A stretch of 64,000 bases of DNA. Source: an uncultured Alphaproteobacteria bacterium. Lineage in GTDB: Bacteria > Pseudomonadota > Alphaproteobacteria > UBA6615. The stretch is taken from contig CALSNJ010000002.1 of the NCBI GenBank assembly GCA_943787745.1, positions 756,125-820,124 on the forward strand, written 5' to 3'. This document shows positions 4,151-28,169 of the stretch, piece by piece. The position numbers and the translations under genes are program-made. The notes beneath the pieces are model-generated. The model was not told the DNA's origin. It did no database searches and worked only from the letters and a program-made list of their open reading frames with translations. Numbering within the stretch: position 1 is the first letter of the stretch; every line of letters starts with the position of its first letter.

Positions 4151-4170
4151 ATACGCAAGCTGGTTTTGAT

Positions 4171-6096: not shown

Positions 6097-6106
6097 GCAC
6101 ATACAA

Positions 6107-6134: not shown

Positions 6135-6156
6135 AAAACGTGTTGATTGTGCGAAA

Positions 6157-6810: not shown

Positions 6811-7037
6811 GATATCTCCGTATCTAGTGGCCCGTATTCCGCATTCGAACGACAGGCAATGTATTGGTCGCGCTTTAAATGTGCGCCAGCCTGCGAAAAG
6901 TCAATTCGCATCGACGCCATGGTTCGCAGGACGAACGCGCCCGCGTCGATATTGAGCCCGCGCATCGAATGCACTATTCAACGTCGTCAGAAAACGTCAC
7001 CCCCGATGCAACCATGTCGGATCACGGAGAAATCAAC

Positions 7038-8267
7038 ATGTCCGAAGCCAAAGGTGCCCTGTCCGGCATAACCGTTCTCGATCTCACGCGCGTCCTTGCC
7101 GGGCCCTACTGCACACAGATGCTCGGTGACCTGGGCGCGGACGTCATCAAGATCGAGCGCCCGGGTGCAGGAGATGACACCAGAAAATTCGCGCCGCCGT
7201 TCATGTCCGGTCCGGACGGGACTGACACCAGCGAAAGCGCCTACTTCATGAGCGCAAATCGCAACAAGCGTTCGGTTGAGATTGATCTCAGCAGCGAGAC
7301 CGGTCAGGCAATCGTCCGCGAGATTGCGCTGAAGGCTGATGTTCTTGTTGAAAACTTCAAGACGGGAAACCTGGCGCGCTACGGTCTTGGATATGACGAT
7401 CTCAAAGAAGCAAATCCCAAACTTGTCTATTGCTCGATCACCGGTTTTGGACAGACCGGCCCCTATTCATCACGACCGGGTTATGACTTCCTGATTCAGG
7501 GTATGGGCGGGATCATGTCGCTGACCGGTGAAGCCGACGGTGAACCCCAGAAAGTTGGCGTACCCATTGCCGATATAATGTCGGGCATGTTTGCCGCCGT
7601 CGCCGTGAACGGTGCCCTGCGTCACGCTGCGGTGACCGGCGAAGGTCAGTACATCGATATTGGGATGCTTGATACACAGGTCGCATGGCTGGTGAATCAG
7701 GGCATGAACTTCATTCACTCGGGCGAAGCCGAGCGTCTGGGCAATGCCCATCCGAATATTGTTCCCTATCAGGTGTTTGAGACTTCCGACGGCCATATCG
7801 TTGTTGCCGTGGGCAACGACAACCAGTTCAAGGTCTTTGCTGGCATCATTGGCGAGCCCGACCTGCCCGAAAACCCGATCTTTGCAACGAACGCCGCGCG
7901 GGTGGGCAACCGCACCGAAGTGGTCGCGCATCTACAGGCCATCATGAAGCAGAAATCCTCAGCCCACTGGTTGACAGAACTCGAAGCCAACAAGATTGGC
8001 TGCGGCCCGATCAATACACTCGATCAGGTATTCGATGACCCTCATGTGAAGGCTCGTGAAATGGTGGTGAATGTCCCCCATCCCCTCGCCGGTCCTGACG
8101 GTGCTGCGCTGATTGCCAGTCCGTTGAAGCTCTCGGGAACGCCCGTTGCGTATCGCCACCACCCGCCACTGCTCGGCCAGCACACCGATGAAGTGCTGGC
8201 AGAAGTGCTGGGCTATGACGAGGCCAAGATCATTGACCTGCGTAAGTCCGGGGCTATCGGATCGTAA
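7038..8267 (+). CDS. CaiB/BaiF class III CoA transferase
   Basis: A 409-residue family III CoA transferase (formyl-CoA transferase-like). The CoA-binding start GITVLDLTRVLAGPYC is at 10-25. The catalytic aspartate is D150 in RPGYDFLIQGMGG, after the family segment ITGFGQTGPYS. The ATG at 7038 is chosen for its GGAGA ribosome site and because earlier codons precede the conserved fold. It would move CoA from one acyl-CoA to an organic acid. The acceptor is unknown. It is tail-to-tail with an IclR gene only six bases away. Confidence 0.92.
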   Translation: MSEAKGALSGITVLDLTRVLAGPYCTQMLGDLGADVIKIERPGAGDDTRKFAPPFMSGPDGTDTSESAYFMSANRNKRSVEIDLSSETGQAIVREIALKADVLVENFKTGNLARYGLGYDDLKEANPKLVYCSITGFGQTGPYSSRPGYDFLIQGMGGIMSLTGEADGEPQKVGVPIADIMSGMFAAVAVNGALRHAAVTGEGQYIDIGMLDTQVAWLVNQGMNFIHSGEAERLGNAHPNIVPYQVFETSDGHIVVAVGNDNQFKVFAGIIGEPDLPENPIFATNAARVGNRTEVVAHLQAIMKQKSSAHWLTELEANKIGCGPINTLDQVFDDPHVKAREMVVNVPHPLAGPDGAALIASPLKLSGTPVAYRHHPPLLGQHTDEVLAEVLGYDEAKIIDLRKSGAIGS

Positions 8268-8273
8268 TTCTTC

Positions 8274-9044
8274 TTAATCACCCGCCAGCGGCGTTGTGAC
8301 CTGAATGGCAATCTCACGCGCCACTTCCTGAATACGCGCACCAATGCGAGGGATACGTGCATCTTCAAGGCGCGCCCTCGGACCGGTCACGGAAATCGCG
8401 AACATCGCACGTCCATGAGGGTTTATGAGCGGCGCCGCGACCGAACGGATACCGGGTGAGCGTTCTTCATTGTTGACCGCATAGCCGGTCTTCCGAATTT
8501 CTGCGAGCTCACGCATCAAACCCGGCAGGTCGGTAATTGTTGTGCCTGTATAGGCATTCAGACGCGTTGCCTTGTAATTGGCCTGAACATCTTCAGGCGG
8601 GCGTATGGACAGAAGCGCCTTTCCCAGGCTGGTCGCGTGGGCGTCAAAGTATCCGCCAATCTGCACATCCGAACGATGGGCGCGATCTGTGGTGACACGG
8701 TCAACGACAACGGCCTGGATACCTTCAAGAAACGCCAGATTGACGGTTTCATCAACCTCGTGCGCCAGCTTCACCAAATACGAATGTGCGTGATGGCTCA
8801 CACGGGCAACCACACTGGCCGGATGCCCGAAGACATGCATGGCGTAGCCAATCCAGTACCGACGATCTGAAGCCTTGTAGGCATAGCCAAGACCGCACAA
8901 TACCTCGAGCAACCGGTGGGCGGTCGCCCGGTGAAGTCCCGTCGCACGGGCCACTTCCGAAACAGCGCGCCCAGACGGACTGGAGTCCAGATATTCAAGA
9001 ATCTGGAACCCGCGCTCAAGCGATTGGTTTTTGTATTCTGCCAT
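8274..9044 (-). CDS. IclR-family transcriptional regulator
   Basis: A 256-residue IclR protein. The winged HTH (NQSLERGFQILEYL, VSEVARATGLHRATAHRLLEVL) covers about 5-65, and the effector domain includes GGYFDAHATSLGKALLS and ends near 250. It is the last gene of the minus-strand run 12807-8274 and lies 30 bases after a Gfo/Idh/MocA gene. It may therefore regulate that dehydrogenase/GMC operon, or the convergent CoA transferase. The effector is unknown. Confidence 0.9.
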   Translation of the reverse strand: MAEYKNQSLERGFQILEYLDSSPSGRAVSEVARATGLHRATAHRLLEVLCGLGYAYKASDRRYWIGYAMHVFGHPASVVARVSHHAHSYLVKLAHEVDETVNLAFLEGIQAVVVDRVTTDRAHRSDVQIGGYFDAHATSLGKALLSIRPPEDVQANYKATRLNAYTGTTITDLPGLMRELAEIRKTGYAVNNEERSPGIRSVAAPLINPHGRAMFAISVTGPRARLEDARIPRIGARIQEVAREIAIQVTTPLAGD

Positions 9045-9074
9045 GAAATCTCTCTTAGTGAGACAAACCAGACA

Positions 9075-10121
9075 TTAAGAGAAATCGGCACGGGTTGGCA
9101 ACTCAACGACCTGGCCGGTTTCAGCCGAAAGATCGGCAGCCATTGTGACATCCATGACCAGTCGAGCCTCACGCGCTGTTACCAACGCCTGACGCCCATG
9201 CGCTATGGCTTCGACAAAGTGGATGGTCTCATCCACCATCGCCCCCGCAAACACGTGATCCACGGGTTCTCCAGGCATTGAAGACAACGGATAACGAATA
9301 CCCTCGGCGACCGTGTTCAAGGTGATGTCCCGATGGGTGTCATCGACCGTGAGTGCCCCCTCGGTCCCGATCACCTCAATCCAGCTTTGCGAATATTGCG
9401 GGTAACCCAGCGGTAAGACCCAACCCGATCCAGCACTGATTGTCGTACCGTCATCCATTGTCACCATGATCCATTGGTGATCCGGCGTGTCGCTGACCTG
9501 ACTGAAGAGCTTCCCAGACTGCTGGGAATACACGCGTACCGGCAATCGTGGCTGCAGGCACCAGAGCAGAAAATCTATTGAGTGTGTGCCTCCCATTGCG
9601 GCCGGAGACATCCTGGACCGGCCTTTGATTTTCGCGCCAATCTCACGGGTGATGTTGCGACTGACGAGGCACGTCACGGGATCACCAATCTGTCCTCGTT
9701 TTATGGCCGCGTTCACAAAGGCATATTTGGGATCGAAACGCCGGGTGTATCCGACAGACAATTGCACGCCGTGCGCATCTGCCAGAGCAATGGCCTCATC
9801 CGTTTCTTCGGGACCCGGCGCAATCGGTTTCTCGACCAAAACATGCTTTCCCGCTTTTAGCGCAGCACGAACAATCGGGAACCGCGCGGATTCAGGTGTC
9901 GAAGCTATGATGATGGCATCGAGTGAATCGGTGGCAACCAACTGACGCCAATCGTCCGTTACCAGAGCAGCGCCTGTCTCGGTCTCTATTTCGGCGGCCC
10001 GCATCGGGTTGGTTTCCGCGATATGCAACTCACCCACCAGAGCGGTTTGGGCGCAGGCATTCGCGCGAATTCCGCCGACCCAACCAGCGCCGATCACACC
10101 CACACCGATCTGTCTGCTCAT
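9075..10121 (-). CDS. Gfo/Idh/MocA-family NAD(P)-dependent oxidoreductase
   Basis: A 348-residue two-domain oxidoreductase. The N-terminal Rossmann start is [14 protein letters not shown]. The EKPIA motif in [14 protein letters not shown] supplies the family lysine. The C-terminal alpha/beta sheet domain begins with [10 protein letters not shown] and has [12 protein letters not shown]. Such enzymes oxidise or reduce sugars and cyclitols such as myo-inositol. Its start overlaps the GMC oxidoreductase stop by four bases, so the two are co-translated. A similar paralogue lies on the other side of the GMC gene. Confidence 0.9.
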
Positions 10122-11722
10122 CTCGCATCCTCCAAAATCATGTCCGAGGCCTTCTCGCCAATCATGATCGTGGGCGCATTGGTATTGCCCGACACGATGC
10201 GTGGCATGATCGAGGCATCAACCACGCGCAGCCCTTCAACACCCCTCACCCTGAGACGGGCATCCACAACAGCGGTCTGATCTGTGCCCATCCGGCAGGT
10301 TCCAACGGGGTGATAACTCGTGCCGCCGCGGTGACGCACAAAGTCACGCATCTCAGCTTCGGTTCGACATTCAGGACCCGGCAGATATTCAGCAGCAACA
10401 AATGGTTTCAGTGCGGGCATCTCTGACAATTCTCGCATGGCCAGCAGGCCTCCAACCAAAAGGTCTTCATCGCGAGGCGCCGAGAGATAATCTGGCCTTA
10501 TCGCGGGGGCGTCGAAGGGGTCGGCGTTTTTGATCATCACCTCACCCCGACTTTCGGGTCGCAACAGCCTCACTATAATTGAGAAACCGGAAAACGGGTG
10601 CAGTCCCGTCCCGGCCTTATCCGTGCTGAACAGCGCAATCCCAGCCTGAATATCGGGCGCAACTGCCGCCGGATCCATACGAAAAAACCCAGCCGCAGAA
10701 GACGCGCCGATAGTCAGGAAGCCTTTGCGAAGAAACGCGTAGCGCAAGCCGGTCATGACGCTGCGCATCGGGTTCCCAACCACGTCGTTCAGGGTGATCG
10801 GCTGGGTGGACTTATAGACCAGTCGCGCATTGTAGTGGTCCTGCAGATTGGCGCCCACATCGGGACTGTCCGCGACACTATCGATCCCGTGAGAGCGCAG
10901 ATGTCCGGCCGGGCCTATGCCCGAGAGCTGGAGCAATTGCGGAGAATTGATCGCCCCACCGGCCAGAATAATTTCCCGCGATGCATTGGCCGTCGTGCTC
11001 TTGCCATTACGCATAAATTCGACGCTGGTCGCACGCCGACCTTCAAAGAGAATTCTGGTCGCGTGGGCATGGGTCGTGACCTGCAGATTTCTACGCCGTC
11101 GGATCGGTCGAAGATAGGCTGTGGCCGCACTGGCGCGTCGACCACGCTTCAGATTGACCTGCAGATAACCAAACCCTTCAAGCTGCGCCCCGTTAAAGTC
11201 ATCGTTGCGAGAATAGCCACACTGCTCGCCAGCCGCGATAAAGGCCTCGCACAGAGGATGCCTGTCCGTTGGGTCAGACACCGTCAGCGGACCACCAACA
11301 CCATGATAGGAATCCGCGCCACGCTGTTGGTCCTCCGCCTTCCGGAAATACGGCAGGACATCATCGAATCCCCAACCAGCGTTTCCCAATTGCCGCCACA
11401 GGTCATAATCCGTGTGATCACCCCGCACATAGACCAGCCCGTTGATGGAACTGGACCCTCCAAGCACCTTCCCGCGCGGTTCGGGCAACGCCCGATTGCC
11501 CGTCGCGGGATGCGGTTCACTCTCATAGAGCCAATTCACATCGGGGTTGGTGAAATGCTTCCCGTAACCCAGCGGAACATGAATCCACGGGCTGCTGTCC
11601 TTGCCACCCGCTTCGAGCAACAGGACCGAATAGCGACCGTTCTCGGTCAGACGATTGGCCAGAACGCATCCCGCACTGCCCGCGCCCACGATAATAAAAT
11701 CAAATCGCTCTTCGTCGGCCAT
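10118..11722 (-). CDS. GMC-family FAD oxidoreductase (choline/alcohol dehydrogenase type)
   Basis: A 534-residue flavoprotein. FAD-binding [15 protein letters not shown] is at the N-terminus. GMC signature 1 is [18 protein letters not shown], and signature 2 is [16 protein letters not shown]. The catalytic histidine is in [12 protein letters not shown] and the second active-site residue in [17 protein letters not shown]. It would oxidise an alcohol or sugar hydroxyl with FAD. BetA-like choline oxidation is possible but not indicated by neighbours. Two flanking Gfo/Idh/MocA enzymes instead suggest a polyol or sugar derivative. Confidence 0.92.
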
Positions 11723-15269: not shown

Positions 15270-16193
15270 ATGGATATCCGCCAGCTAGAGCAGTTCGTCG
15301 CCGTCTACGAAGAAGGCAGTTTTTCAAGTGCGGCCCGACGTGAAAACTGCACACAGCCCGCGCTTTCCGTGCAGATTCGGAATCTGGAAGAAGAATTCGG
15401 GGTCGCGCTGTTTACCCGCAGCCGGCGCGGTGTAACACCAACTGTCGCCGGAAAACGCCTTTACTCCCGCGGGCTGGCAATTCTCAGCGCAGTCGCCGAT
15501 ACGCGCATCGCTGTCCGTGAACTCTCCGGCGATATTACGGGCTCCATTACCATCGGCACCGTACCGTCAGTATCACGAAGCGCCCTGCCCGCTGCGCTGT
15601 CACGGTTCACCGAGGCGCACCCGAATGTAGAGCTGACACTCGACGAAGCCTATGGCGGCACCCTGACTGAAAGGGTCGCGGCCGGAGAACTGGATTTCGC
15701 CGTTGTAACGAGTGCTGTCAGTCATGAGGGGATCGAGGCGACACTCCTTGCCGAGCACGAAATGGCGCTTGTCTCCGGTCCAAGCTCAGGTTTCAAACCT
15801 TTCGACCGCGTTCGACTGAAAGATCTCCCACCCCTGCGGATGGTTCTTCCGACCCGGCGCCACGCCATTCGTCAGTTGATCGACACACATATTGCCCGGG
15901 CCGAACTGGTCATTGAATCCAGCATTGAATCCGACGGACTGAATACGACCCTGGAATATGTCCGACATTCAGGTTGGTCCACGCTCACAGCGGTGGCATC
16001 CGTAATCGATACGGTGGAATCAGGAACGTTGATCATCAATCCGATTGTGCGCCCGCGCGCTGATCTCGACTACTACCTCATCCGCCAGATGCGCCAACCG
16101 CTGACCGGTGCTGCAGACCGATTGGTCAACCTGCTTCGCGAGGAACTGGCAGGGATCACAAAACGCTGGAGAACGCTTTCAAATAATTCGTAA
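15270..16193 (+). CDS. LysR-family transcriptional regulator (tandem paralogue)
   Basis: A 307-residue LTTR. The HTH begins MDIRQLEQFVAVYEEGSFSS, with QPALSVQIRNLEEEFGVALFTR, closely parallel to the preceding LysR. The effector domain shares the GTLT-x6-GELDFAVVT segment with its neighbour. Tandem duplication and divergence are likely. It lies 49 bases before an SDR gene that it may control. Confidence 0.92.
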   Translation: MDIRQLEQFVAVYEEGSFSSAARRENCTQPALSVQIRNLEEEFGVALFTRSRRGVTPTVAGKRLYSRGLAILSAVADTRIAVRELSGDITGSITIGTVPSVSRSALPAALSRFTEAHPNVELTLDEAYGGTLTERVAAGELDFAVVTSAVSHEGIEATLLAEHEMALVSGPSSGFKPFDRVRLKDLPPLRMVLPTRRHAIRQLIDTHIARAELVIESSIESDGLNTTLEYVRHSGWSTLTAVASVIDTVESGTLIINPIVRPRADLDYYLIRQMRQPLTGAADRLVNLLREELAGITKRWRTLSNNS

Positions 16194-16242: not shown

Positions 16243-17019
16243 ATGTCACATAATGGGATGCAACAACGGGTCATCGTCACAGCTGGCGGATCGGGAATCG
16301 GACGCGCAATTGTTGATCGTTTTGTCGCTTCCGGCGCTCTTGTTCACACGTGCGATGTCGTGCCCGAACTTCTCGAAGAGGTCATTGCAGGCAGCGATTG
16401 CGTGTCCGGCACGCTTGCCGATGTGGGAAAACCGACGGACGTCGAAAACCTTGTGGCTGAAGCGGTCTCTGCCATGGGCGGCATCGATGTTCTGGTCAAC
16501 AATGCCGGGATTGGCGGCCCGCGTGCGGCGCTTGAGGATGTTTCCTACGAAGACTGGGATCGCACCATCGGGGTCAACCTCAATGGCATGTTCTACTGCA
16601 TCAAGAACGTCGCCCCGCATATGAAAGCTCAGAATTCGGGCTGCATTGTGAATATTTCAACGGCGTCTGCAAAAGTCGCACTGCCGATGCGTTCACCTTA
16701 TGTGGCGTCCAAAGTGGGCGTGCTGGGCCTGACCCACACAGTGGCGCGCGAATATGGGCCCTTCGGTATCCGCTGTAACAGTATTCTTCCGGGTTTGATC
16801 GACAACGAACGCGGGCGCGGCATCGTCGCGACCCAGGCCAAAGAGCGTGGTATTACGCCCGCCGAACGCGAAGCCGAGTTTCTGGAGTTTATCTCCCTGA
16901 AATGCTGGATCGACCCCACCGAAGTCGGTGATCTGGCCGTCTTCCTCGCGTCCCCAGCTGGCCGCCACATTACCGGGCAAGACATTGGCATGGATGGCAA
17001 TGTCGAGTGGGAAATCTAG
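16243..17019 (+). CDS. Short-chain dehydrogenase/reductase (SDR)
   Basis: A 258-residue classical SDR. The cofactor motif is TAGGSGIG at 13-20, NNAG is in the fourth strand, and the active site is YVASK with a Thr/Ser pair at the usual serine position. A GHITGQDIGMDGN-type C-terminus is typical of NAD-dependent alcohol or 3-oxoacyl reductases. It follows the LysR pair and precedes a TauE/SafE permease by 18 bases. The substrate is unknown. Confidence 0.9.
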   Translation: MSHNGMQQRVIVTAGGSGIGRAIVDRFVASGALVHTCDVVPELLEEVIAGSDCVSGTLADVGKPTDVENLVAEAVSAMGGIDVLVNNAGIGGPRAALEDVSYEDWDRTIGVNLNGMFYCIKNVAPHMKAQNSGCIVNISTASAKVALPMRSPYVASKVGVLGLTHTVAREYGPFGIRCNSILPGLIDNERGRGIVATQAKERGITPAEREAEFLEFISLKCWIDPTEVGDLAVFLASPAGRHITGQDIGMDGNVEWEI

Positions 17020-17037: not shown

Positions 17038-17793
17038 TTGTTACTCGTTGAACTGACGCCATTTCAGTACGCCTTCGCCTTTTTCGCATTCTTTCTCGGC
17101 GGTCTCGTTAAGGGCACCGTCGGGATCGGGATGAAGGCGATCATCTTAGGTTTGCTTGCCACTGTCGTGCCGCTGCCTGTCGCGATCGCACTGCTAATCA
17201 TTCCGGGAGTTGCCGCAAATGCATGGCAGGTTCTGAGCGGCGGTTCAGTGATGGTCTCCCTCAAACGTATTTGGCCGCTCTTGCTTGCCTGTTGCGTGGG
17301 AGTTTGGCTGGGTGCCGGCATACTCGTTATCGCGGATACGCAACTTCTGACAATTGGGCTCGGTATCCTGCTGGGCACCTACGCAACCTATGCTCTCTTC
17401 GCCCCAAAAATCCCTTCTCCCGGGCGTCACGAGGGCTGGATGTCACCTTTGATCGGCGGGCTGAACGGGCTCGCAGCGGGAATGACAGGATCGGATGTGA
17501 TCCCGGGCGTGCCTTACCTGCAGGCGATGGGGCTGGCGCGTGACGAACTGGTACAGGCGATGGGCCTGCTATTCCTGACCGCATCCTTTGCGATCGCATT
17601 CTCGTTTCAGCAAAAGGGACTGCTCGACACGCAGCTCGCCTTTTCCTCCCTCGTCTCGGCGATCCCGGCACTGTCGGGCTATTACCTCGGTGAAAAAGTG
17701 CGCAAGCGCATTCCTGAAGCGCAGTTCCGGCAGCTGTTGCTGCTCTCTCTGCTCCTCCTCGGTCTTTATATTGTGATCCGAAACACGTTCTAG
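17038..17793 (+). CDS. TauE/SafE-family membrane transporter
   Basis: A 251-residue integral membrane protein with about seven or eight hydrophobic segments. It has the family N-terminal GGLVKGTVGIGMKAI and the repeat GGLNGLAAGMTGSDVIPGVPYL. TauE/SafE proteins export sulfite, sulfoacetate or other organic anions. The start is TTG at 17038 because no better in-frame ATG precedes TM1, so the exact start is uncertain. It follows the SDR by 18 bases, likely in the same transcript. Confidence 0.85.
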   Translation: MLLVELTPFQYAFAFFAFFLGGLVKGTVGIGMKAIILGLLATVVPLPVAIALLIIPGVAANAWQVLSGGSVMVSLKRIWPLLLACCVGVWLGAGILVIADTQLLTIGLGILLGTYATYALFAPKIPSPGRHEGWMSPLIGGLNGLAAGMTGSDVIPGVPYLQAMGLARDELVQAMGLLFLTASFAIAFSFQQKGLLDTQLAFSSLVSAIPALSGYYLGEKVRKRIPEAQFRQLLLLSLLLLGLYIVIRNTF

Positions 17794-17816: not shown

Positions 17817-18986
17817 TCAGGCGCCGGATGAGAACAGCCTATCGGGTGTGACATCATCAACTTCGGGACAGCCGAGCATCGCCATCGTGTAGGACAGCTC
17901 GTTGCTGAGAATTTCCATGGCCCGTTCCGCGCCGTTTCTGCCCCCGGCCGAAACGCCATAGAGGAACGCACGACCGAGAAAACAGAAATCCGCCCCGAGC
18001 GCGAGCGCCTTCATAATGTCCGAGCCACGGCGAATACCGCCATCGAGAAAGAGCGTGCCGCCCTCCGGCACCGCATGACGGGCCGCCTGCAGGCAGTCGA
18101 TAGTCGCCGGCATGATGTTCAGCTTGTTGCCCCCATGATTCGACAGGGACACAGCATCGGCCCCTACGTCATAGGCTTTCGCCACATCTGCGGGGTCCAT
18201 CAGCCCCTTGATGACCAGCTTTCCGGGCCAGACGGATCGAATCCGTTCGATGTCGTTCCATACGAGGTTTGGCGGCCAAACGCTCGCATAGAATTTCGCG
18301 ACGTCCTTCGCAGAACTCCCGGGCGGCGCATAGGGGCTCCAGCTTTGCATCTTCGGCATGCCACCGCTCATCAGGAAATCAGCAAACCAGCGCGGATGGG
18401 TCGCGAGATCGGAAAAAATCGCGGGGAGTTTCTGCCAGTTTATGCCGCCAACAGGCGTGACACCGCTGCGCGGCGGCACCTCGCTCTGGTTCTGGATGGG
18501 GTAGTCCACCGACACCACAAGAACGTCCACACCAGCATCCCCGGCGCGGCGGATGATACGCTCGGTAAGAGCAACGTCCCGCGATGCATAAAGCTGGAAC
18601 CAGACATTGTCCGGTGCGATACGCGCCACCGTTTCAATGGATTCAACGGAGACCCCCGAGAGCATAAAGGGAATGTTGAAATCACGCGCCACCTCAGCGA
18701 GGAAACGTTCCGCGCCGGGGCGAAACACGCCGATACCACCGACCGCAGAAACCCCGAAAGGCATAGCGTATCGTTTGCCAAAGATCGTCCGCCCGGTTTC
18801 CGGTGGCACGCATTTGACCAGCGCCCGTGACACCATCTGGTACTTATCAAAGGCGGACACATTCCGCGCCACACCAGCGCCATCGGCGTGCCCGTATTCC
18901 GCATAGTCAAAGAGGAAAGATGGCAGGCGCCGGCCGGCCATCTTCCGCAGATCCTCGATATTCAGCGCTTGAGATACATTCGTCAT
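17817..18986 (-). CDS. FMN-dependent alpha-hydroxy-acid dehydrogenase family protein with altered active site
   Basis: A 389-residue protein of the lactate dehydrogenase/glycolate oxidase fold (LldD). FMN-binding WFQLYASRD is at 129-137, lysine K260 in KLVIKGLMDP, and catalytic histidine H284 in SNHGG. The family motif SNHGGRQLD reads SNHGGNKLN here, so the arginine that binds the substrate carboxylate is N287. The loop DYPIQNQSEVPPRSG also departs from the usual DxPxxGxRxRDxRNG. It is the last gene of the HyuA/HyuB operon. A 2-hydroxyacid may not be the substrate. Confidence 0.87.
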   Translation of the reverse strand: MTNVSQALNIEDLRKMAGRRLPSFLFDYAEYGHADGAGVARNVSAFDKYQMVSRALVKCVPPETGRTIFGKRYAMPFGVSAVGGIGVFRPGAERFLAEVARDFNIPFMLSGVSVESIETVARIAPDNVWFQLYASRDVALTERIIRRAGDAGVDVLVVSVDYPIQNQSEVPPRSGVTPVGGINWQKLPAIFSDLATHPRWFADFLMSGGMPKMQSWSPYAPPGSSAKDVAKFYASVWPPNLVWNDIERIRSVWPGKLVIKGLMDPADVAKAYDVGADAVSLSNHGGNKLNIMPATIDCLQAARHAVPEGGTLFLDGGIRRGSDIMKALALGADFCFLGRAFLYGVSAGGRNGAERAMEILSNELSYTMAMLGCPEVDDVTPDRLFSSGA

Positions 18987-19034: not shown

Positions 19035-19808
19035 CTAACTGGCCACAAACAGGCCAGCGGCAAACCCTTCATCGATGACAAAGTTCGCGCCATAGATGGC
19101 TCCGCCGGTTTTCGGCGATGCCAGGAACAACGCGGTGTTGGCAATATCACTCGGCTGGGAATAGGTCCGGCCCGACGGTGTCAGCATCTCCATGAAGTCG
19201 AGCACCGGCTTGAGTTCCGGATCGGTCCGGATATCCTCATTCATCGGGGATTCCGTATTGCCCGGCGAAATCGAATTCACATGAATGCCATCGCGCGAGA
19301 CTTCCGTTGCCAGCGCTCTGGTCATCATCACGATGCCCGCCTTGGTGGCGCAATACATGGCATAGGCCGGAAGTGCGCGGACACCCGCGACCGAAGCGAT
19401 ATTGATGATATTGCCCCGCTTGCGGCTCTTCATGTGGGGAACAACGGCGTTGGTGACGTTCCAGTTTCCCTTGAGATTGATATCCACCATGCGGTTCATG
19501 TCAGTGGATTTGGTCTCCCCGGCAGGGGTCGGATAGAACACACCCGCAGCGTTCACCAGAATGTCGATTTTCTTGAAGTCCTTGATGACCTTATCGACCA
19601 TCTTGTTGACTTCGGCCGGCTTGCTGACATCACAGGTATAGCCCCTGGACTTCCGCTTGATGTCCTTGGCCACTTTGTTGGCCTTGCGAATATTCGAACT
19701 TGCGATCACCGCGCAGGTCGCACCCTCTGCTGCAAACGTGCGGGCGATCTCTTCGCCAATACCCTGTGATCCGCCGGTGATCAGCGCCACCTTGTTTCTC
19801 AATTCCAT
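19035..19808 (-). CDS. Short-chain dehydrogenase/reductase (SDR)
   Basis: A 257-residue classical SDR. The cofactor motif is TGGSQGIG at 11-18, NAAG is in DILVNAAGVFYPTP, and the active site is Ser...YCATK. It shares the unusual NAAGVFYPT segment with the next SDR upstream (19841-20599), which points to a local duplication. It is the sixth gene of the minus-strand HyuA/HyuB operon. Reaction unknown; probably oxidation or reduction of a hydroxyl or keto intermediate. Confidence 0.9.
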   Translation of the reverse strand: MELRNKVALITGGSQGIGEEIARTFAAEGATCAVIASSNIRKANKVAKDIKRKSRGYTCDVSKPAEVNKMVDKVIKDFKKIDILVNAAGVFYPTPAGETKSTDMNRMVDINLKGNWNVTNAVVPHMKSRKRGNIINIASVAGVRALPAYAMYCATKAGIVMMTRALATEVSRDGIHVNSISPGNTESPMNEDIRTDPELKPVLDFMEMLTPSGRTYSQPSDIANTALFLASPKTGGAIYGANFVIDEGFAAGLFVAS

Positions 19809-19840
19809 ATCTGGCTCTCCTTGGTGTGTCTTTTTGGTGT

Positions 19841-20599
19841 CTAGTAGCCAGCCGAAAGGCCCTCATCCATGAGCAGCAGCGTGCCATGCGCCGCGCTCGC
19901 ATCCTGCGAACACAAAAACAGTACAGCGCCCGCCATTTCGCGAGGATCTGCGAATGGCCGGTTGCTGAGCGTCTTTTGTTTGATGGTTTCGTAAATCTCC
20001 GCGTATTCGGGTTCGGTTCTTACATTCTCGTTCATGGCCGTGGCCGTGTTTCCCGGTGCCAGACAATTCACATTGATGTCGTGGGGGGCGAGTGCGGCCG
20101 CCAAAGATCGGGTCATGTTGATCACAGCAGCTTTCACCGCCGAATAGACAATATAGTTGCTGCGCCCGGCGACGCCGGCAGCCGAACCAAGATTGACGAT
20201 CTTACCGCCCCCGGCCTCAATCATGTGCGGCGCAACCGTATCGCACATGAAGAAGCAGCCTTTCAGATTGGCATCCGCCATGCCGTCATACATGGCTTCG
20301 TCGGTCTCACCGATCCGTGTCGGGTAGAACACGCCCGCGGCATTCACGAGAATATCGATCTGGCCAAACTCGTCTTTCACATCGGCAACGAGTTTCGAAA
20401 TCTGACCGACATCGCTGACATCGCACGCAAATGGTCTGGCGTTCTCACCACACCGGTCGACCGTGGCTTGCGCCTTTTCCAGAGACGAACTGGCAACCAC
20501 GGCAACCCGCGCACCTTCTTCGGCGAACCGCACACAAATCTCGGCTCCGATTCCCGAAGACCCACCTGTGACCAGTGCAACCTTGTTTTCAAAACGCAT
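19841..20599 (-). CDS. Short-chain dehydrogenase/reductase (SDR)
   Basis: A 252-residue classical SDR. TGGSSGIG is at 11-18, NAAGVFYPTR in the fourth strand, and the active site is Ser...YSAVK. It is a paralogue of the SDR at 19035-19808 and lies 13 bases after the serine-hydrolase gene in the same operon. Two sister SDRs in one operon suggest two stereochemically distinct or sequential redox steps. Confidence 0.9.
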   Translation of the reverse strand: MRFENKVALVTGGSSGIGAEICVRFAEEGARVAVVASSSLEKAQATVDRCGENARPFACDVSDVGQISKLVADVKDEFGQIDILVNAAGVFYPTRIGETDEAMYDGMADANLKGCFFMCDTVAPHMIEAGGGKIVNLGSAAGVAGRSNYIVYSAVKAAVINMTRSLAAALAPHDINVNCLAPGNTATAMNENVRTEPEYAEIYETIKQKTLSNRPFADPREMAGAVLFLCSQDASAAHGTLLLMDEGLSAGY

Positions 20600-20612
20600 G
20601 AAATACTTCTCC

Positions 20613-21764
20613 CTATAACGCTGCGTAGACCGCCTCTATCATGGGACCAGCGAATGGCCCGGTATCAGCAATCGGCGTCATCCGATTGCCACAATAACTA
20701 AAGGCCAGATGGCGGTGCGGATCACCGAATCCGATGGCCCCGCCAATTCCGGTATGGCCGAAATTGTCACGATGCCCCCCGAACGGAAATGGTGGGCAAG
20801 ACAACATGAATCCACACCCAAACCGGAATGGCCGGTTGGTCATGCGGTCGAGATCGTCCCAATGCTCGCGGATCGCATCTGCAATCAGCTCTTCAGACAA
20901 CAACCGCTGGCCGTCGATGACGCCGCCATTCGACAGGCCGCCATAGAGCCGTGCGATCGCCCGTGCATTCCCGTGCCCACTGGCCGATGCGAACTGATTG
21001 TGAACCCAGTCACTCGAATTGAAATCTTCGGTCTTCGGCATCGGGTTCCAGGCGCGCAACAAAGGCGATTCTGCATCTCCCTTGATCCCATCGCGCGATG
21101 GTGTCCCCGGCGTCTCCACAAATTCAGCCCGCCGTCCTGCCTCTTCTGCATTCAAACCAATCTGGAAATCGATCCCGAAGGGAATCGCAACATCCTCGCG
21201 CCATACGGTGCCAACATCACGACCGTCAGCATGTCGGATAAGGCCGTTCAGCAAAGGCCCATAGGTAAAGGAGTGATAGGCGCCAACCGTGCCCGGTGGC
21301 CATTCTGGCGTCGCGGCTTCCAGGGCCTTCTCTACCGATCGTCCGTCCCAGAGCGATCCTGCCGGGGCCGCATCGGCATAGATCACACCGGACTGGTGGG
21401 AGATCAGCGTCCGCACGGTCATATCTTCCTTGCCGCCTCCCGAAAACTCTGGCCAGTAATGACTGACCTTCTCTTCCATCGCGACGGTTCCGCGTTCGAT
21501 CAGCGTCAGCAATGCAACAGCCGAACAGGCTTTGGTGACGGACATCATGCAGGTGGTCGTATCCGGGAGCCAGGGCTGCGTCCGCGCTGCATCACGATAG
21601 CCACCCCACAGATCAACAACGGCCTCACCCTCCACGACCACCGACACACAAGCGCCAAGCTCATCGCCGCAGACAGGATCGCCGTCTTGCATGTTTCTCC
21701 GGAACGCAGCTTCAACGGCAGCGAACTTCGGATCACAGGTGCCAGATACTGGAATTTCAGCCAT
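20613..21764 (-). CDS. Beta-lactamase-fold serine hydrolase (EstB/class C-like)
   Basis: A 383-residue serine hydrolase. The SxxK motif is S75-V-T-K78 in CMMSVTKACS, a Tyr motif is near 163 (GAYHSFTYG), and a KTG-like HTGIGG sits near the C-terminus. No signal peptide is seen, so it acts in the cytoplasm. That fits an esterase, lactonase or amide hydrolase rather than a drug-resistance enzyme. It is three bases from the HyuB stop in the same operon, so it may open or trim the same substrate. Confidence 0.88.
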   Translation of the reverse strand: MAEIPVSGTCDPKFAAVEAAFRRNMQDGDPVCGDELGACVSVVVEGEAVVDLWGGYRDAARTQPWLPDTTTCMMSVTKACSAVALLTLIERGTVAMEEKVSHYWPEFSGGGKEDMTVRTLISHQSGVIYADAAPAGSLWDGRSVEKALEAATPEWPPGTVGAYHSFTYGPLLNGLIRHADGRDVGTVWREDVAIPFGIDFQIGLNAEEAGRRAEFVETPGTPSRDGIKGDAESPLLRAWNPMPKTEDFNSSDWVHNQFASASGHGNARAIARLYGGLSNGGVIDGQRLLSEELIADAIREHWDDLDRMTNRPFRFGCGFMLSCPPFPFGGHRDNFGHTGIGGAIGFGDPHRHLAFSYCGNRMTPIADTGPFAGPMIEAVYAAL

Positions 21765-21767
21765 GCG

Positions 21768-23552
21768 CTACTCCGCTCCCGCGCGCAAATGCGTGGTTTC
21801 ATCGACAGCGAGCGAGCCGTCAGGGTTTACAACCACGCCATAAACATCCCGGGCTCTCTCAGCAGACAGAAACCCTTCGGCCACGTGCAATTGGACCGCG
21901 CCGGGATCCCGTTCGGAAGGCACACCGAACCCACCACCACCGCAGGAGCGGGATTCGATCATTTCACCGGCTTCAAGAATGACCTGGCCCACCCGTGGCA
22001 CCTCTTCCTGATCTCCGTTCGCGGTAATTTTATGCTGTCCGGCATTGGCCGCGTCCAGACCACCACGAACACCTTTGGGACCGTTGATCGAGCCATCCGA
22101 ATTGTAAATCAGGGACATGGCACCGACACGTGGACCAAACTGCGCAAACGCCTGTGGAGCGCCGCAATTGCGACCCGCACCCTCCGTATCGGGGACAAAA
22201 CCCCGCGCATGCACATAGATCGGCAAACGTAGCTCATCCAGTTCCACAGAATCCAGAAAACACATCCCGGCATTGCCGACATGGCCCACTGTCCACCAGG
22301 CATCCCCGTGCGCACTCGCAGCACCGCAGGTCCGGCCCAGAAAGACCTGATTGATATAGGGCTTCCCGGTTTCCGGATTGACGCCAGAGACAACCGCAGC
22401 GGCCGGCGGGCTGGAGGCACCACATTCGGCCAGACCGATATCCTCGGAAATCTTGGCCATTGAGGCCTGCACCGAATTCGACACGCGATCAGCAACATTG
22501 GTCGTGGCAGCCGAGCAGCTTGTCGGATGCTTTGGTATTCCCACGACGCAATTCTCGCGCAACTGGACGTGAATACGACGGAAGGACCCGGCATTCTTGG
22601 GCACCGTGTGCTCGATGGAATTGAAAACACCCACCATCGCAGCGGTCCGCGCACAAGCTTCAGAAAGGTTCAGGCCGCAAGGCATCGCATCAGGATTATC
22701 CCGCAGATCGACATCAACAATTGCAGCCTCGGAATCCACCTTCACCGTGACGTTGATCTTCACGCCCTCTTCGGGTGTTCCGGGGATCGGGTCATGGGTA
22801 CTGGAATGCTCTGCTTCGCCCGACGGCAAAGCCCGGATTGCGGTTTCCATACGCGCTTCAGAATAATCGAAGAACTGGGTGGCAAAGGTTTCCAGGCGGT
22901 CCCAGCCGACATCCTCACCCAGCGCAACAAGTTCGCGTTCACCAATGCGCGCGGCACCGACCATCGCCAGATAGTCACCCCACCACTGATCCGGCACACG
23001 AATACGCAGCTGGCACATGCGAACAATATCTTCGATATTGGCGTAGTCCTTTTGCACCTTTACGGCGGGGAAAATCAGCGCGCCTTCCTCGTAAACGTCT
23101 CGTGCGCGTGCGTGATAGGTGGTGGGTATCGAGTTTCCGATATCGGCCTGATGGGCTTTGGCCTCGACCGTAAAGCGATGTCGGCCATCGCTGTCCATCA
23201 CCGGAACAAGGATCGTGTGATCCGCTGGATGCGAACAGCCGTGATAAGGCGAATTGTGGAGATATGCGTCTCCAGCCTGAAAGTCGGGATGAAAATCCGC
23301 CATCGAGCGCGCCATGATATCCGGCCCCGAGAGCACATGGATCGGCAGGCTTTCCGTCGCGGTCAGAAGTTGATGATCGGCGGTGACAAGGCAGCATGAA
23401 AAATCCCGTGCCGTGTTCAGTACGCCTGATCGCCCCGTCCGTAATAGCGTATTGGCCATCTTTCGAACGATGCCATCGAGACGATTGGACAACAGCGCGA
23501 GCTGTACGCCATCAAGCGCCTCCTGGTTCTTTGCTGTCATTCCATTTCCCAT
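21768..23552 (-). CDS. Hydantoinase B/oxoprolinase-family subunit, copy 1
   Basis: A 594-residue HyuB-type protein. Diagnostic segments are GDAYLHNSPYHGCSHPADHTILVPV, KAHQADIGNSIPTTYH, CGLNLSEACARTAAMVGVFNS and the glycine-rich end SCGGGGFG. HyuB pairs with HyuA to hydrolyse or carboxylate cyclic amides or ketones with ATP. It begins six bases after the stop of a second, very similar HyuB gene. ATG 23552 is used; 23540 is an alternative. It is clearly paralogous to copy 2 over the full length. Confidence 0.92.
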   Translation of the reverse strand: MGNGMTAKNQEALDGVQLALLSNRLDGIVRKMANTLLRTGRSGVLNTARDFSCCLVTADHQLLTATESLPIHVLSGPDIMARSMADFHPDFQAGDAYLHNSPYHGCSHPADHTILVPVMDSDGRHRFTVEAKAHQADIGNSIPTTYHARARDVYEEGALIFPAVKVQKDYANIEDIVRMCQLRIRVPDQWWGDYLAMVGAARIGERELVALGEDVGWDRLETFATQFFDYSEARMETAIRALPSGEAEHSSTHDPIPGTPEEGVKINVTVKVDSEAAIVDVDLRDNPDAMPCGLNLSEACARTAAMVGVFNSIEHTVPKNAGSFRRIHVQLRENCVVGIPKHPTSCSAATTNVADRVSNSVQASMAKISEDIGLAECGASSPPAAAVVSGVNPETGKPYINQVFLGRTCGAASAHGDAWWTVGHVGNAGMCFLDSVELDELRLPIYVHARGFVPDTEGAGRNCGAPQAFAQFGPRVGAMSLIYNSDGSINGPKGVRGGLDAANAGQHKITANGDQEEVPRVGQVILEAGEMIESRSCGGGGFGVPSERDPGAVQLHVAEGFLSAERARDVYGVVVNPDGSLAVDETTHLRAGAE

Positions 23553-23557
23553 CAGGA

Positions 23558-25318
23558 CTACAAGCCTGCTCGCATTTTTTCGGTCGCCGCGACATCGAGG
23601 TTACCCATGTCATCCACCACAACGCCGTAAACTGATGCGGCACGTTCAACACTCACATAATCTTCGCGCACATCATGGGCGACCATCTCCGGCTCACGGT
23701 CCATGGGGTTTCCGTACCCCCCACCGCCACAGGATTGAGACCCGATCAATTCCCCGGCAACCAGATTGACGACATCACAATTGGCCAGCTCTTCCCGGTC
23801 CCCGTTGCGGGTAATTCGGAACTGGTCCGCGCATGCGCCGCCCAATCCGCCGCGCACACCTTTGGGTCCGTTGATGCCACCATCACTCACATAGGCCACA
23901 TCGAGATTCCCGACGCGCGGACCGAATTCCGTATAGACAGCCCGGGAACCGCAAAAGCGTCCCGCACCTTCTGTGTCAGGCGAAAACCCGCGTGCCTTTA
24001 CGAATAGCGGCTGACGCAGCTCATCAAGCTCGATCGAATCCTGATAACAAAGTCCGCCATTGCCCACATGACAGATCGTCTGCCAGGCATCGGCATCCGG
24101 CGCACCCGCCCCACCCGACAAACCAAGAAACACCTGGTTCACGAACGGCTCTCCGGTATCGGGATTGATCCCCGAAACCACACCGGTCGAAGGCGGAATG
24201 ATCGCGCCACATTCTGCCAGGCCAAACCCGTCGGCGATTTCAGCCATCGCAGCCTGAGTTGGGTTTGAAACCCTGTCGGCAACATTCGTGGTGGCCACCG
24301 AACAGCTCGTGGGATGCTTGGGGATGCCGCACACCGATCCCTCGCGCAGCAAGACCTCGATCCGTCCAAATGACCCGGCATTTTTGGGGACCGAATGATC
24401 AATCGAATTGAACACACCCACCATCGCAGAGGTACGCGCGCAAGCTTCCGAGAGATTGAGGCCACAAGGCTGCGCATCAATATTGTCGCGCAAATCAACC
24501 GTGACCTTCCCCGCATCAGGATCGATGGTGACAATGCTCTTGATCGTAATGCCATCCTCAGGCGTACCGGGAATCGCATCATGGGTTGAGGTGCGGGTCG
24601 CGGTCCCGGCGGGCAGTTGCTTGATCGCACCAACCATGCGTTCTGCCGAATAGTCGAACCATTGCTCGTTGAAGTTTTCCAACGTGTCCCAGCCAACCTC
24701 TTTGCCCAGCGCCAGAATTTCACGCTCACCAATCCGGGCGGCGCCCATCATCGCGAGGAAGTCACCCCACCACTGTTCCGGCACACGGATGCGCATCTGA
24801 CACATCCGAACAATATCCATGTTGTATTCGTAGTTTTCCTGAACCTTCACAGCCGGGAAGATCAGCGCACCTTCTTCATAAACATCCCGTGCGGTGCCGT
24901 GATAGGTCGTCGGAATGGAGTTTCCGATATCAGCCTGATGGGCTTTCGCCGCGACAGTGTAGCGATGGACGCCGTCATCATCGATAACCGGAATCAGAAT
25001 GGTGTGGTCCGCCGCGTGGGAACATCCGTGATAGGGCGAGTTATGCAGGAACGCGTCTCCCCGTTTCAGATCAGGATGATACTCCTTCATGGTCTTCGCC
25101 ATGATATCGGGCCCTGACAACACGTGGATCGGCAAGGCTTCAGCAACAGCTACCAGCTTGTCATCGCCGGTCAGAATGCAGCAGGAGAAATCCCGCGCAA
25201 TGTTCAAAACACCCGAACGCCCCGTACGCATCAGGGTGTTGCCCATCTTGCTCGAGATACCTTCGAGCCGGTTGGAGAGAAGAGCAAGTTGAACGCCGTC
25301 GATTTTGGTCTTTGCCAT
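23558..25318 (-). CDS. Hydantoinase B/oxoprolinase-family subunit, copy 2
   Basis: A 586-residue HyuB-type protein that aligns end to end with copy 1: GDAFLHNSPYHGCSHAADHT, KAHQADIGNSIPTTYHG, CGLNLSEACARTSAMVGVFNS, SCGGGGYGNP. The ATG at 25318 gives the same N-terminus as copy 1 (IDGVQLALLSNRLEG) and has an AGAGG ribosome site. It follows hyuA by 25 bases. The two B copies with one A suggest a heteromeric enzyme or two alternative A-B pairs. Confidence 0.92.
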   Translation of the reverse strand: MAKTKIDGVQLALLSNRLEGISSKMGNTLMRTGRSGVLNIARDFSCCILTGDDKLVAVAEALPIHVLSGPDIMAKTMKEYHPDLKRGDAFLHNSPYHGCSHAADHTILIPVIDDDGVHRYTVAAKAHQADIGNSIPTTYHGTARDVYEEGALIFPAVKVQENYEYNMDIVRMCQMRIRVPEQWWGDFLAMMGAARIGEREILALGKEVGWDTLENFNEQWFDYSAERMVGAIKQLPAGTATRTSTHDAIPGTPEDGITIKSIVTIDPDAGKVTVDLRDNIDAQPCGLNLSEACARTSAMVGVFNSIDHSVPKNAGSFGRIEVLLREGSVCGIPKHPTSCSVATTNVADRVSNPTQAAMAEIADGFGLAECGAIIPPSTGVVSGINPDTGEPFVNQVFLGLSGGAGAPDADAWQTICHVGNGGLCYQDSIELDELRQPLFVKARGFSPDTEGAGRFCGSRAVYTEFGPRVGNLDVAYVSDGGINGPKGVRGGLGGACADQFRITRNGDREELANCDVVNLVAGELIGSQSCGGGGYGNPMDREPEMVAHDVREDYVSVERAASVYGVVVDDMGNLDVAATEKMRAGL

Positions 25319-25343
25319 GATGACTATCCTCTCTGTCCGCGGC

Positions 25344-27422
25344 TCAGGCCGCAGCCTTTCCCGGTACAATCGAAACACTGCCCGACGCGCGCCGTTCTGC
25401 CGTCGCCCCCGGATCCACAACAACCGTCGTAAATGGTGATTCAATAATCGCCGGACCGGCGAGAACCTCTCCCTGCTTCATGGCCTCAAAACGACGCACC
25501 GTCGCATCAACATGGCCATGGCCCGAGAAATAGACTTTCCGTGTCCCATCGACCGATGTCTTGAGGTCCCGGGCGGCCAGAGAGCCGCTTTCGCCCTCAC
25601 GCAATCGACATTTGACCGATGCCGTCCAGCCCACGACTTCAACCCCAGAGTTGGGATCGTTGATCGCAAAGATGTCCTCGTGAACCTTGTGGAATTCCTG
25701 CACCAGCGCCTGAACATCAGCATCACTTTCAAAGCGACGTGACGCCAGAGGCACTTCGATTTCCCAAACCTGTTCCGGGTAGCGTGCTTCGGCAAAGAAT
25801 TCGATTGTCTGATCGATCGACCCCTGTCCAGGCCCGTCGATGAAGCTATTGCAGCTCGCCTCCAGTACATCGAGAATTCCGTTCACACCGTCTGCATCGA
25901 ACCCCTCAGAAGTCGCAAAGAATGTTCGCGTGTACTGGGCATGCAGGTCGGACATCATGGCACCCGCCGCGCTCAAAGCGGCCCCGACCTCGGGAATGAT
26001 GACCCGTTCGCTGCCAAGGCGCCTGCCAATCGCTGTTGAATTTATACCAGCAGCACCGCCTCCGCCGATCAGGATGGCATCGCGGGGGTCGATCCCCTGA
26101 TTGACCGTGATGTCGACAATCGCCTGAACCATGTTCTCGGTCGCAATCGAAATGACAGCAGCTGCGGCATCTTCAAGACTGAGGTTCATGGGCGTGGCGA
26201 CCTCGCGGATGATCGCATCCCGTGAGGCATCGAGATCCAACGACATGTTGCCACCAAGAAAGAACTCCGGATCCAGATAGCCGAGCACCAGCGACGCATC
26301 GGTCACGGTTGGCTTGTCGCCCCCCTGTCCATAACAAGCAGGTCCGGGCACAGCACCAGCGCTTTGCGGGCCGACATGGAGCATACCGCCATCATCGACC
26401 CAGGCGATGGAGCCACCACCGGCACCGATGGACTTCACATCGACGGAGGGAAAGCCCGTCATGTGGCCCCGATAGGGCTGGCCAATCCATGTTTCCCGTG
26501 TCCAAGGAATACGTCCGCGGCGGACCAGGCTGACATCGTAGGTTGTTCCACCTGTATCTGCGATCACCGCTGTATCCGACCCCTCGTCTTCGCGAGCGAA
26601 ATAGCGCCCGGACACAGGTGCCATCGACGGGCCGGAATTGATCAGGTGGATGGGCTGCTCGGCGATATCGCTGGCATCCATCATACCACCCTGAGACGTC
26701 ACAATCAGAGTGCGCCCATCGAAACCGGCCTCGGTCAGCCGACCTGTGAGGTTGCGCATATAGGCGCTCATCTGCGGCTTGAGGGAGGCATCGATCGCCG
26801 CCGAAGACGCGCGACGGTATTCGCGCAGGGAGGGATTGAGAACATGCGAAAGCGTGTAAGGAACGCCGGGAAGATGCTGCTCAATAAGTTCACCGACGCG
26901 ATCTTCATGGGCAGGGTTGATGATCGACCACAGAAGACAGACAGCGACAGCCTCAACCTCCTTTGCCTTGAGCTCATTCAGTATTTCAACGACACGGCCC
27001 TCATCGAGAGGTTTCTTTTCCGATGCATCGGCCAGGATTCGACCGGGCACCTCATAAGAGAGTGCGCGCGGGATATAGGGCTGGGGATACGGCACAGTGA
27101 AGTTGAACGGCTCCATGCGCCCGCCTTCACGAAACACCAGAATATCGCGATGACCTTCGGTCGTCAGGAAAGCCGTCTTTGCGGTGTTGCCGGTGACGAT
27201 CGCATTGATGGCGTGGGTTGTGCCGTGAATGAAGAGGTCAGCCTTCCCCAAAAGGTCGGCAAGACTGAGTTCGAAATCATCCGCTGCGACCTGCAAACTA
27301 TCAAGAACGCCCCGGATTGGATCGTCGGGTGTCGTTGATGCCTTGAACATATGCAAACCGTTCTCGTCGTCCTCGACGATCAGATCCGTGAATGTTCCTC
27401 CGGTATCGACTGCAAATCGCAT
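25344..27422 (-). CDS. Hydantoinase A/oxoprolinase-family ATPase subunit
   Basis: A 692-residue HyuA-type protein of the actin/ASKHA ATPase fold. The phosphate-binding motif MRFAVDTGGTFTDL is at the start and a second, VIADTGGTTYDVSLV, follows in the central domain. AILIGGGGAAGINSTAIGRRLG and VIIPEVGAALSAAGAMMSD are family landmarks. ATG 27422 has GGGGAGA upstream. It heads the seven-gene operon and diverges from a TetR gene. Possible products include an N-methylhydantoinase, oxoprolinase, caprolactamase or ketone/aryl-ketone carboxylase. The sequence alone does not decide. Confidence 0.93.
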   Translation of the reverse strand: MRFAVDTGGTFTDLIVEDDENGLHMFKASTTPDDPIRGVLDSLQVAADDFELSLADLLGKADLFIHGTTHAINAIVTGNTAKTAFLTTEGHRDILVFREGGRMEPFNFTVPYPQPYIPRALSYEVPGRILADASEKKPLDEGRVVEILNELKAKEVEAVAVCLLWSIINPAHEDRVGELIEQHLPGVPYTLSHVLNPSLREYRRASSAAIDASLKPQMSAYMRNLTGRLTEAGFDGRTLIVTSQGGMMDASDIAEQPIHLINSGPSMAPVSGRYFAREDEGSDTAVIADTGGTTYDVSLVRRGRIPWTRETWIGQPYRGHMTGFPSVDVKSIGAGGGSIAWVDDGGMLHVGPQSAGAVPGPACYGQGGDKPTVTDASLVLGYLDPEFFLGGNMSLDLDASRDAIIREVATPMNLSLEDAAAAVISIATENMVQAIVDITVNQGIDPRDAILIGGGGAAGINSTAIGRRLGSERVIIPEVGAALSAAGAMMSDLHAQYTRTFFATSEGFDADGVNGILDVLEASCNSFIDGPGQGSIDQTIEFFAEARYPEQVWEIEVPLASRRFESDADVQALVQEFHKVHEDIFAINDPNSGVEVVGWTASVKCRLREGESGSLAARDLKTSVDGTRKVYFSGHGHVDATVRRFEAMKQGEVLAGPAIIESPFTTVVVDPGATAERRASGSVSIVPGKAAA

Positions 27423-27490
27423 GGCTCTCCCCTTCCTCGCTACATACAAACGCTGCCAGAATAACAGCCCGGATGCACCCCAACCAATAT

Positions 27491-27542: not shown

Positions 27543-28169
27543 ATGACGGCAGCCCGAAAGCGTACACGCAGTGCAGATGAAACACGCGCACTGATCGTCA
27601 ACGAAGCGACCACGCTGTTCGCAACGCGTGGTTATGAGCGCACCAGCCTGAATGCGATTGCCAAAAGTATCGGGATCAGCGCACCAGCCCTCTACTACCA
27701 TTTCGATTCCAAGGACGAGATTCTCTTCGCGTCGCTGGAAGCAACCCTGCTCGACTTGTGCGCGATGTCCACCGAGGCCGTGGCGGCAACGGATGGGTCA
27801 CCAGCTGCGTGCCTGCGTGCGTTCGTCAGAGCACATGTGTTCCACGACGTCGGGAATGTCGACATCATGCCGATGCTCAATGCCGGCCTCTACAATGTCG
27901 ACAATCTGATTGAGGGACTCCCGACCACCAAACGTAGACGGCTGACCGTCCTCCAAAGAGAATTTCTGGACCGCCTGCGCGACATTCTGCGCGCCGGACA
28001 AGAAAAGAAGTCCTTCAGGGTCGACGATATCACCGCGACCGCTTTTGCGATTATCGGTATCGTCGATTTTGCCGTCTATTGGTTTCGGGCTGAAGGAAAA
28101 CTCACCGTCGAGCAACTCGCCGATCAGTACGGCGATCTGGCACTCCGAATGGCCGGCGTTCAGACCTAG
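27543..28169 (+). CDS. TetR/AcrR-family transcriptional regulator
   Basis: A 208-residue regulator. The HTH spans about 12-58 (TRALIVNEATTLFATRGYERTSLNAIAKSIG, ALYYHFDSKDEIL). The all-helical ligand domain follows. It diverges from hyuA with an 18-base palindrome between, so it is the likely repressor of that operon. Its stop codon overlaps that of the convergent alpha/beta-fold gene (shared CTAG at 28166-28169). Confidence 0.92.
   Translation: MTAARKRTRSADETRALIVNEATTLFATRGYERTSLNAIAKSIGISAPALYYHFDSKDEILFASLEATLLDLCAMSTEAVAATDGSPAACLRAFVRAHVFHDVGNVDIMPMLNAGLYNVDNLIEGLPTTKRRRLTVLQREFLDRLRDILRAGQEKKSFRVDDITATAFAIIGIVDFAVYWFRAEGKLTVEQLADQYGDLALRMAGVQT

Follow-up and report, generated by a model that had tools for sequence, protein, structure and literature searches.

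Which substrate is oxidised by an FMN-dependent dehydrogenase of the LldD/mandelate dehydrogenase type when the residues that hold a substrate carboxylate have been replaced? This question is raised by a gene in the window, by which we mean the whole 64,000-nucleotide stretch of DNA analysed here. The alpha-hydroxyacid oxidases and dehydrogenases are marked by two carboxylate-binding arginines, and at these two positions the product of this gene (hereafter the window protein) carries S168 and N287.

Both substrate arginines are replaced in the window protein

The FMN gene is an open reading frame with an ATG start, and its 389-residue product matches FMN_dh (PF01070, Pfam) over residues 17-384 with 354.3 bits against a cut-off of 24.9. 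The features on which the following argument depends are:

17817..18986, minus strand: FMN_dh LldD/mandelate dehydrogenase-like protein, 389 aa, both substrate arginines replaced
18117..18143, minus strand: motif SNHGGNKLN, residues 282-290, with H284 kept, arginine replaced by N287, K288 gained, and N290
18207..18209, minus strand: codon of the active-site lysine K260, kept
18480..18509, minus strand: VDYPIQNQSE, residues 160-169, with D161 kept, Y162, and the substrate arginine replaced by S168 (from alignments)

Alignment places the FMN_dh catalytic set in the window protein, namely H284 within SNHGG, K260, Y133 and D161, the last two of which are the equivalents of Tyr129 and Asp157 in glycolate oxidase (GOX); Y28 is also kept. 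A preliminary description of this DNA had reported the motif SNHGGNKLN, with H284 and K260 retained and the arginine after HGG replaced by N287. Translation and alignment confirmed the motif and the numbering of K260, H284, N287 and N290, and the retention of the two catalytic residues beside N287 was borne out by the alignment. The arginine loss was real but understated, as the second lost arginine, at S168, and the gained K288 had been missed. In alignments with mandelate dehydrogenase and homologues, this second substrate arginine, which stands at the R163 position of p-hydroxymandelate oxidase (Hmo) just before a conserved glutamate, is S168; this is the position numbered R164 in GOX and R165 in mandelate dehydrogenase, the correspondence to the window protein being one of alignment.

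The codons are AGC for S168 and AAC for both N287 and N290. A homologue of 75% identity differs from the FMN gene at 51% of third codon positions but at only 20% of first and 9.8% of second positions, a pattern of purifying selection, so that S168 and N287 are not sequence errors. A sequencing artefact is also ruled out because S168 and N287 occur as a pair in six intact homologues (the window protein included) and in a broken seventh copy.

Precedents for the loss of the arginines

The (S)-mandelate dehydrogenase (MDH) of Pseudomonas putida (6bfg, 1p4c) was both the best PDB sequence match (3e-61) and the best whole-chain fold match. It shares the catalytic Tyr, Asp, Lys and His with the window protein, as well as the glycine at position 83 (MDH G81), but has R165 and R277 where the window protein has S168 and N287. 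Among the NCBIfam models, that of the L-lactate dehydrogenase LldD ranked first with 250 bits, below both cut-offs (NF008398, 250.3 against 376; NF033901, 217.1 against 550), and LldD has both substrate arginines whereas the window protein has neither.

The importance of these two positions is evident from published variants. In Hmo, Arg163 and Arg255 are described as contacting the alpha-hydroxyacid carboxylate, and activity is lost in R163A, H252F and R255A (PMC6677016), while MDH R277G is reported with a kcat about 400-fold lower and a KM about 400-fold higher (PMC12018205). Positions 168 and 287 are thus the two that read out the carboxylate, and, given the cost of R277G, natural loss of both arginines, if uncompensated, would cripple an enzyme that acts on carboxylates. 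Three precedents show that the chemistry of the family can run on neutral alpha-substituted carbonyls. MftD, the pre-mycofactocin synthase, converts the lactam AHDP to an alpha-keto amide (PMC7491314); the L-pantolactone dehydrogenases of Nocardia and Amycolatopsis, which are FMN-dependent and membrane-bound, oxidise an alpha-hydroxylactone (PMC10384591); and the low-activity mutant Hmo R163L, in which the first carboxylate arginine is lost, oxidises (S)-mandelamide to the alpha-ketoamide (PMC6677016, PMC6778850; adduct structure 6a3t). Because Hmo R163L oxidises (S)-mandelamide, a neutral alpha-hydroxycarbonyl is the best reading of the substrate of the window protein. These precedents are inexact, since the first arginine is retained in MftD and is the sole one lost in R163L. 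Hmo R163L is moreover an engineered, single-loss variant of an oxidase with Ala79 and Phe24 (PMC6677016), unlike the window protein, and the pantolactone dehydrogenases are likened to it through their published description. No natural family without these arginines was found in the literature searched, which is weak evidence of absence.

Loss of the arginine after HGG, taken alone, is already natural in MftD. The four annotated MftDs examined (TIGR03966) all carry SNHGGNNLD, with the same arginine-to-asparagine change as in SNHGGNKLN, and their substrate is a neutral lactam (PMC7491314). The window protein could accordingly be an MftD-type enzyme of a mycofactocin-like pathway, sharing with MftD this asparagine, an aromatic residue after the D161 equivalent and a DGG-[IV]-RRGSD stretch. 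However, it scored only 199.6 bits against the MftD model (cut-off 470.85; a Mycolicibacterium MftD reached 710.9), shares 27-30% identity with MftD and falls in a separate clade. Its residues are also the reverse of those of MftD, which keeps the first arginine and is without the Y28 tyrosine, and none of the four matches in its own genome reached the MftD cut-off. We therefore rejected MftD orthology on score, tree and residues, and consider this explanation highly improbable. As for a mycofactocin context, no radical SAM match was found by Pfam among the 30 window ORFs between 418 and 34465. On a plasmid of Sphingopyxis macrogoltabida (L072), an MftD-like protein with SNYGGNNLD, its catalytic His replaced by Tyr, lies near a gene annotated as SMP-30/gluconolactonase family.

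The S168/N287 pair is confined to one conserved clade in the sample

Homologues were collected from the order (24 genomes), 95 relatives, 385 genomes of the class, plasmids (selected hits) and the best 80 of 588 relatives on named contigs; a scan of the named contigs with the window protein as single query found no relative, and the 588 were listed in another search. The resulting alignment had 143 rows, comprising the window protein and 142 unique homologues. Its counts leave out duplicates of loci already included (L004, L006, L037, L038, L042-L045), L005, ORFs below 250 aa, matches above E 1e-25 or spanning fewer than 230 query residues, and nine identical rows. The states at 168/287 were R/R in 111 rows, R/N in 9, S/N in 7, R/K in 7, R/I in 6, and M/K, H/R and V/L in 1 each, which are not family-wide frequencies because the sample was drawn mostly with the window protein as query. 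We rejected N287 as a unique feature because the arginine is also missing from five MftD or MftD-like rows, from four R/N rows that belong to another clade, from the six R/I rows and from the V/L row. The S/N pair was found in six intact proteins and one broken copy, listed here with their identity to the window protein:

Window protein: 100%, reference
G005: 75%
G019: 64%, contig identical to JABJEK010000130.1, 'Rhodospirillaceae bacterium SI074_bin10'
L077 and L078: 50 and 49%, uncultured Rhizobiales
L080: 47-48%, alphaproteobacterial MAG
Broken G008 copy: 56% over residues 112-386, one stop

Within the 80 named loci (the best 80 of 588 relatives), S/N was seen in 4 of 84 matches. A profile of the clade was searched against the class sample of 385 genomes (E up to 1e-110) and a phylum sample of 398 genomes (E up to 1e-100), thresholds that could miss more distant S/N proteins. 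The window gene scored 717 bits and the next best match in these samples 434. No further S/N protein was recovered, the 18 newly fetched loci all having R at 287 and the rest of the listed matches already having R.

A tree of 76 rows was computed with the columns around both traits excluded, using a quick search with SH-aLRT support, no bootstrap and a midpoint root. The S/N rows formed one alphaproteobacterial clade (SH-aLRT 99), the MftD and MftD-like rows a separate distant clade (SH-aLRT 97), and the R/I and R/N paralogues a third, which includes two paralogues from the window's own genome. A single event suffices for the S/N double change. A basic residue at 287 switches between presence and absence at least three times, and the direction of these changes is not fixed because the root is the midpoint. 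The two paralogues of the window's own genome, L001 (G000:C2:1512009-1513103) and L002 (G000:C2:943181-944299), have SNHGGIASD and SNHAGNTND, keep the first arginine and group with rows from further genomes of the family. Both arginines are lost in another way, as V/L, in a plasmid protein of Rhodococcus sp. JS3073 (L073:2218-3426), which groups with MftD on a long branch. This protein scored 283 bits against the MftD model, below the cut-off, and lies near two SDR-like ORFs and one cupin-like ORF, as judged by eye.

Y28, Y133, D161, K260 and H284 are kept in all six intact clade members, which span 47-100% identity. The clade-diagnostic columns, among them A81 (P elsewhere), Y162, S168, W237, N287 and K288, are invariant in these six and occur in fewer than 10% of rows elsewhere. 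The paired loss is real and conserved, and it probably has functional meaning. The asparagine ending the motif, which the preliminary description had also pointed out, does not belong to this set: at position 290 only the window protein and G005 have N, the other five of the seven clade members having D, so N290 was rejected as a functional sign. The suggestion of a different chemistry is unsupported because every catalytic residue checked is kept; judged by these residues, the flavin chemistry is most likely ordinary.

The changes in charge bear on whether the enzyme is still a 2-hydroxy-acid dehydrogenase, in which K288 and a rearranged pocket (A81, Y162, W237) would bind the carboxylate and stabilise the transition state of an atypical acid that may be bulky. 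Within the clade no basic column other than K288 is gained, and this residue directly follows the lost arginine; the column has K in six of six intact members, R in the broken copy, and R or K in 1% of the 130 other rows. Lysine at 287 itself is found in related proteins (seven R/K rows and one M/K row of 143). Against this single gain, three basic columns (168, 170 and 287) are lost in all six intact members and three more (18, 23 and 309) in part. The ligand-site residues listed for Hmo do not include the one that follows the canonical arginine (PMC6677016), and MftD has N at the K288 position, with no charge gained. We regard an acid substrate as possible but rather unlikely, and K288 as the main reason for caution, since it may be a shifted charge.

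Predicted structure and probable membrane association

The AlphaFold2 model, built from the window protein and 51 related proteins, had a pLDDT of 92.9 and a pTM of 0.92. Its best fold match was the full-length membrane-bound MDH 6bfg (6bfg_A; Z 53.0, rmsd 1.7, 373 of 373 residues, 32% identity). The soluble chimeras scored lower, with Z of 48.3-48.6 (1p4c, Z 48.6 over 343 aligned residues), and this better match of the full-length enzyme suggests that the predicted fold retains the membrane segment. G83 aligns with MDH G81, where an alanine would be oxidase-like, and so the window protein would be a quinone-coupled dehydrogenase. In Hmo this position is Ala79 (PMC6677016).

The same model bears on whether the window protein is catalytically degenerate or has a non-enzymatic role. 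Such a fate would suit the absence of two residues that Hmo needs for activity (PMC6677016), and the G008 copy is indeed interrupted by a stop, its match beginning only at residue 112. Yet all the checked catalytic residues persist in the six intact members across their 47-100% identity range, and the purifying selection and the confident full-length model also argue for a working enzyme, which makes degeneracy improbable.

The gene neighbourhood does not fix the substrate

The genes around the FMN gene are:

15270..16193, plus strand: LysR regulator
16243..17019, plus strand: SDR1
17038..17793, plus strand: TauE/SafE permease, convergent with the FMN gene, 23 bp apart
19035..19808, minus strand: SDR2, 48 bp upstream of the FMN gene, same strand
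19841..20599, minus strand: SDR3
20613..21764, minus strand: serine beta-lactamase/esterase-family protein, LipL-like, 203 bits, below the cut-off of 650
21768..23552, minus strand: Hydantoinase_B/oxoprolinase subunit (HydB1), CapB-like, 240 bits, below the cut-off of 1000
23558..25318, minus strand: second Hydantoinase_B subunit (HydB2), start set at the ATG of MAKTK
25344..27449, minus strand: Hydantoinase_A subunit (HydA), CapA-like, 571 bits to the caprolactamase alpha model, cut-off 1000
27543..28169, plus strand: TetR regulator, divergent

Along the minus strand, HydA is followed by HydB2, HydB1, beta-lactamase/esterase, SDR3, SDR2 and the FMN gene, and the gaps between them are 3-48 bp when HydB2 starts at its ATG. 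G005 shows the same order at 74-89% identity until its contig ends inside HydA. The FMN enzyme could therefore be the last gene of a HydA-HydB-esterase-SDR operon, acting on an intermediate such as a hydroxylated lactam, hydantoin or lactone, with which the likeness of HydA to the caprolactamase alpha subunit would agree. However, in all eight further family genomes examined (L174-L181) the operon has no adjoining FMN gene, G019 carries operon and FMN gene on different contigs, and operon genes are absent around the clade loci L038, L077, L078 and L080 within the stretches compared. Because the slot next to SDR2 is variable, a lactam pathway of the hydantoinase operon is kept only as a rival, which we consider unlikely, and the operon does not fix the substrate of the FMN enzyme.

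The HydA-HydB-HydB-esterase-SDR-SDR operon itself is syntenic in ten family genomes (window 19035-27449, L037, L174-L181), one of which, G006, is without the esterase in the stretch covered. The slot by SDR2 holds the FMN gene in two of the ten and DUF899-like and GFA-like genes in G009, G015, G004 and G019; it is empty in G002. On this side of SDR2, a 2OG-Fe(II) oxygenase is found in G011, G017 and G006, with other ORFs between in G011 and G017. Profile matches for DUF899, GFA and the oxygenase come from a single genome each, and the others were assigned by sequence likeness.

No window neighbour gene lies beside all clade members within the stretches compared. In L077 and L078, a gene of the PanE/ketopantoate reductase family (L077:3557-4588, L078:6957-7988; TIGR00745 over cut-off) precedes the FMN gene by 10 and 12 bp and itself follows a GMC oxidoreductase (profiled in L077); the PanE neighbour fits alpha-hydroxy/alpha-keto chemistry. 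The FMN gene of G019 has a 2OG-Fe(II) oxygenase neighbour. In L080 the FMN gene follows TRAP transporter genes, and as TRAP transporters mostly carry organic acids, this neighbour speaks for the acid substrate considered above. Elsewhere in the window, the stretch 418-11722 looks catabolic, with an ammonium transporter, a 2OG-Fe(II) oxygenase, a catechol-type dioxygenase, a CoA-transferase III and a GMC oxidoreductase (Pfam).

A neutral substrate is the favoured reading

We propose, at about even odds (probability roughly 0.5), that the window protein is a membrane-associated FMN dehydrogenase of the LldD/MDH fold that oxidises a neutral alpha-hydroxy, or possibly alpha-amino, carbonyl compound, that is, an amide, lactam, lactone or ester and not a carboxylate. 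In this mechanism, H284 paired with D161 would act on the substrate hydroxyl, Y133 would help to position the substrate, a hydride would pass to FMN N5, and the electrons would exit to the quinone pool. At the site where a carboxylate would otherwise be held by the two arginines, the neutral carbonyl would accept hydrogen bonds from S168 and N287, with a possible contribution from K288. The analysis establishes the fold family, the retained catalytic residues, the paired loss within a clade and an intact gene under selection; we infer the neutral substrate, the quinone acceptor, the membrane association and these single-residue roles.

A substrate without a carboxylate, as first suggested from N287, stands as the best reading and is strengthened by the joint loss of the two carboxylate arginines throughout a conserved clade, although the argument from N290 fails for the clade. 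It is favoured over a carboxylate assisted by K288. Slightly more tentatively, the clade may be a distinct LldD-like subfamily without carboxylate recognition, independent of MftD and acting on neutral alpha-hydroxy lactones, lactams or amides, in which the N-K pair and the aromatic residue after the catalytic Asp would form a new recognition set.

Significance

In the three clade members scanned with NCBIfam (the window protein, L077 and L080), the best score was to an L-lactate dehydrogenase model, below its cut-off, and such an assignment probably gives the clade the wrong substrate class. If the neutral-substrate reading is true, positions 168 and 287 would offer a simple sequence test that tells acid enzymes apart from dehydrogenases of neutral substrates across a large family. 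For pantolactone, enzyme resources are described as relatively limited (PMC10384591), and the clade would then supply natural candidates for making alpha-keto amides and lactones.
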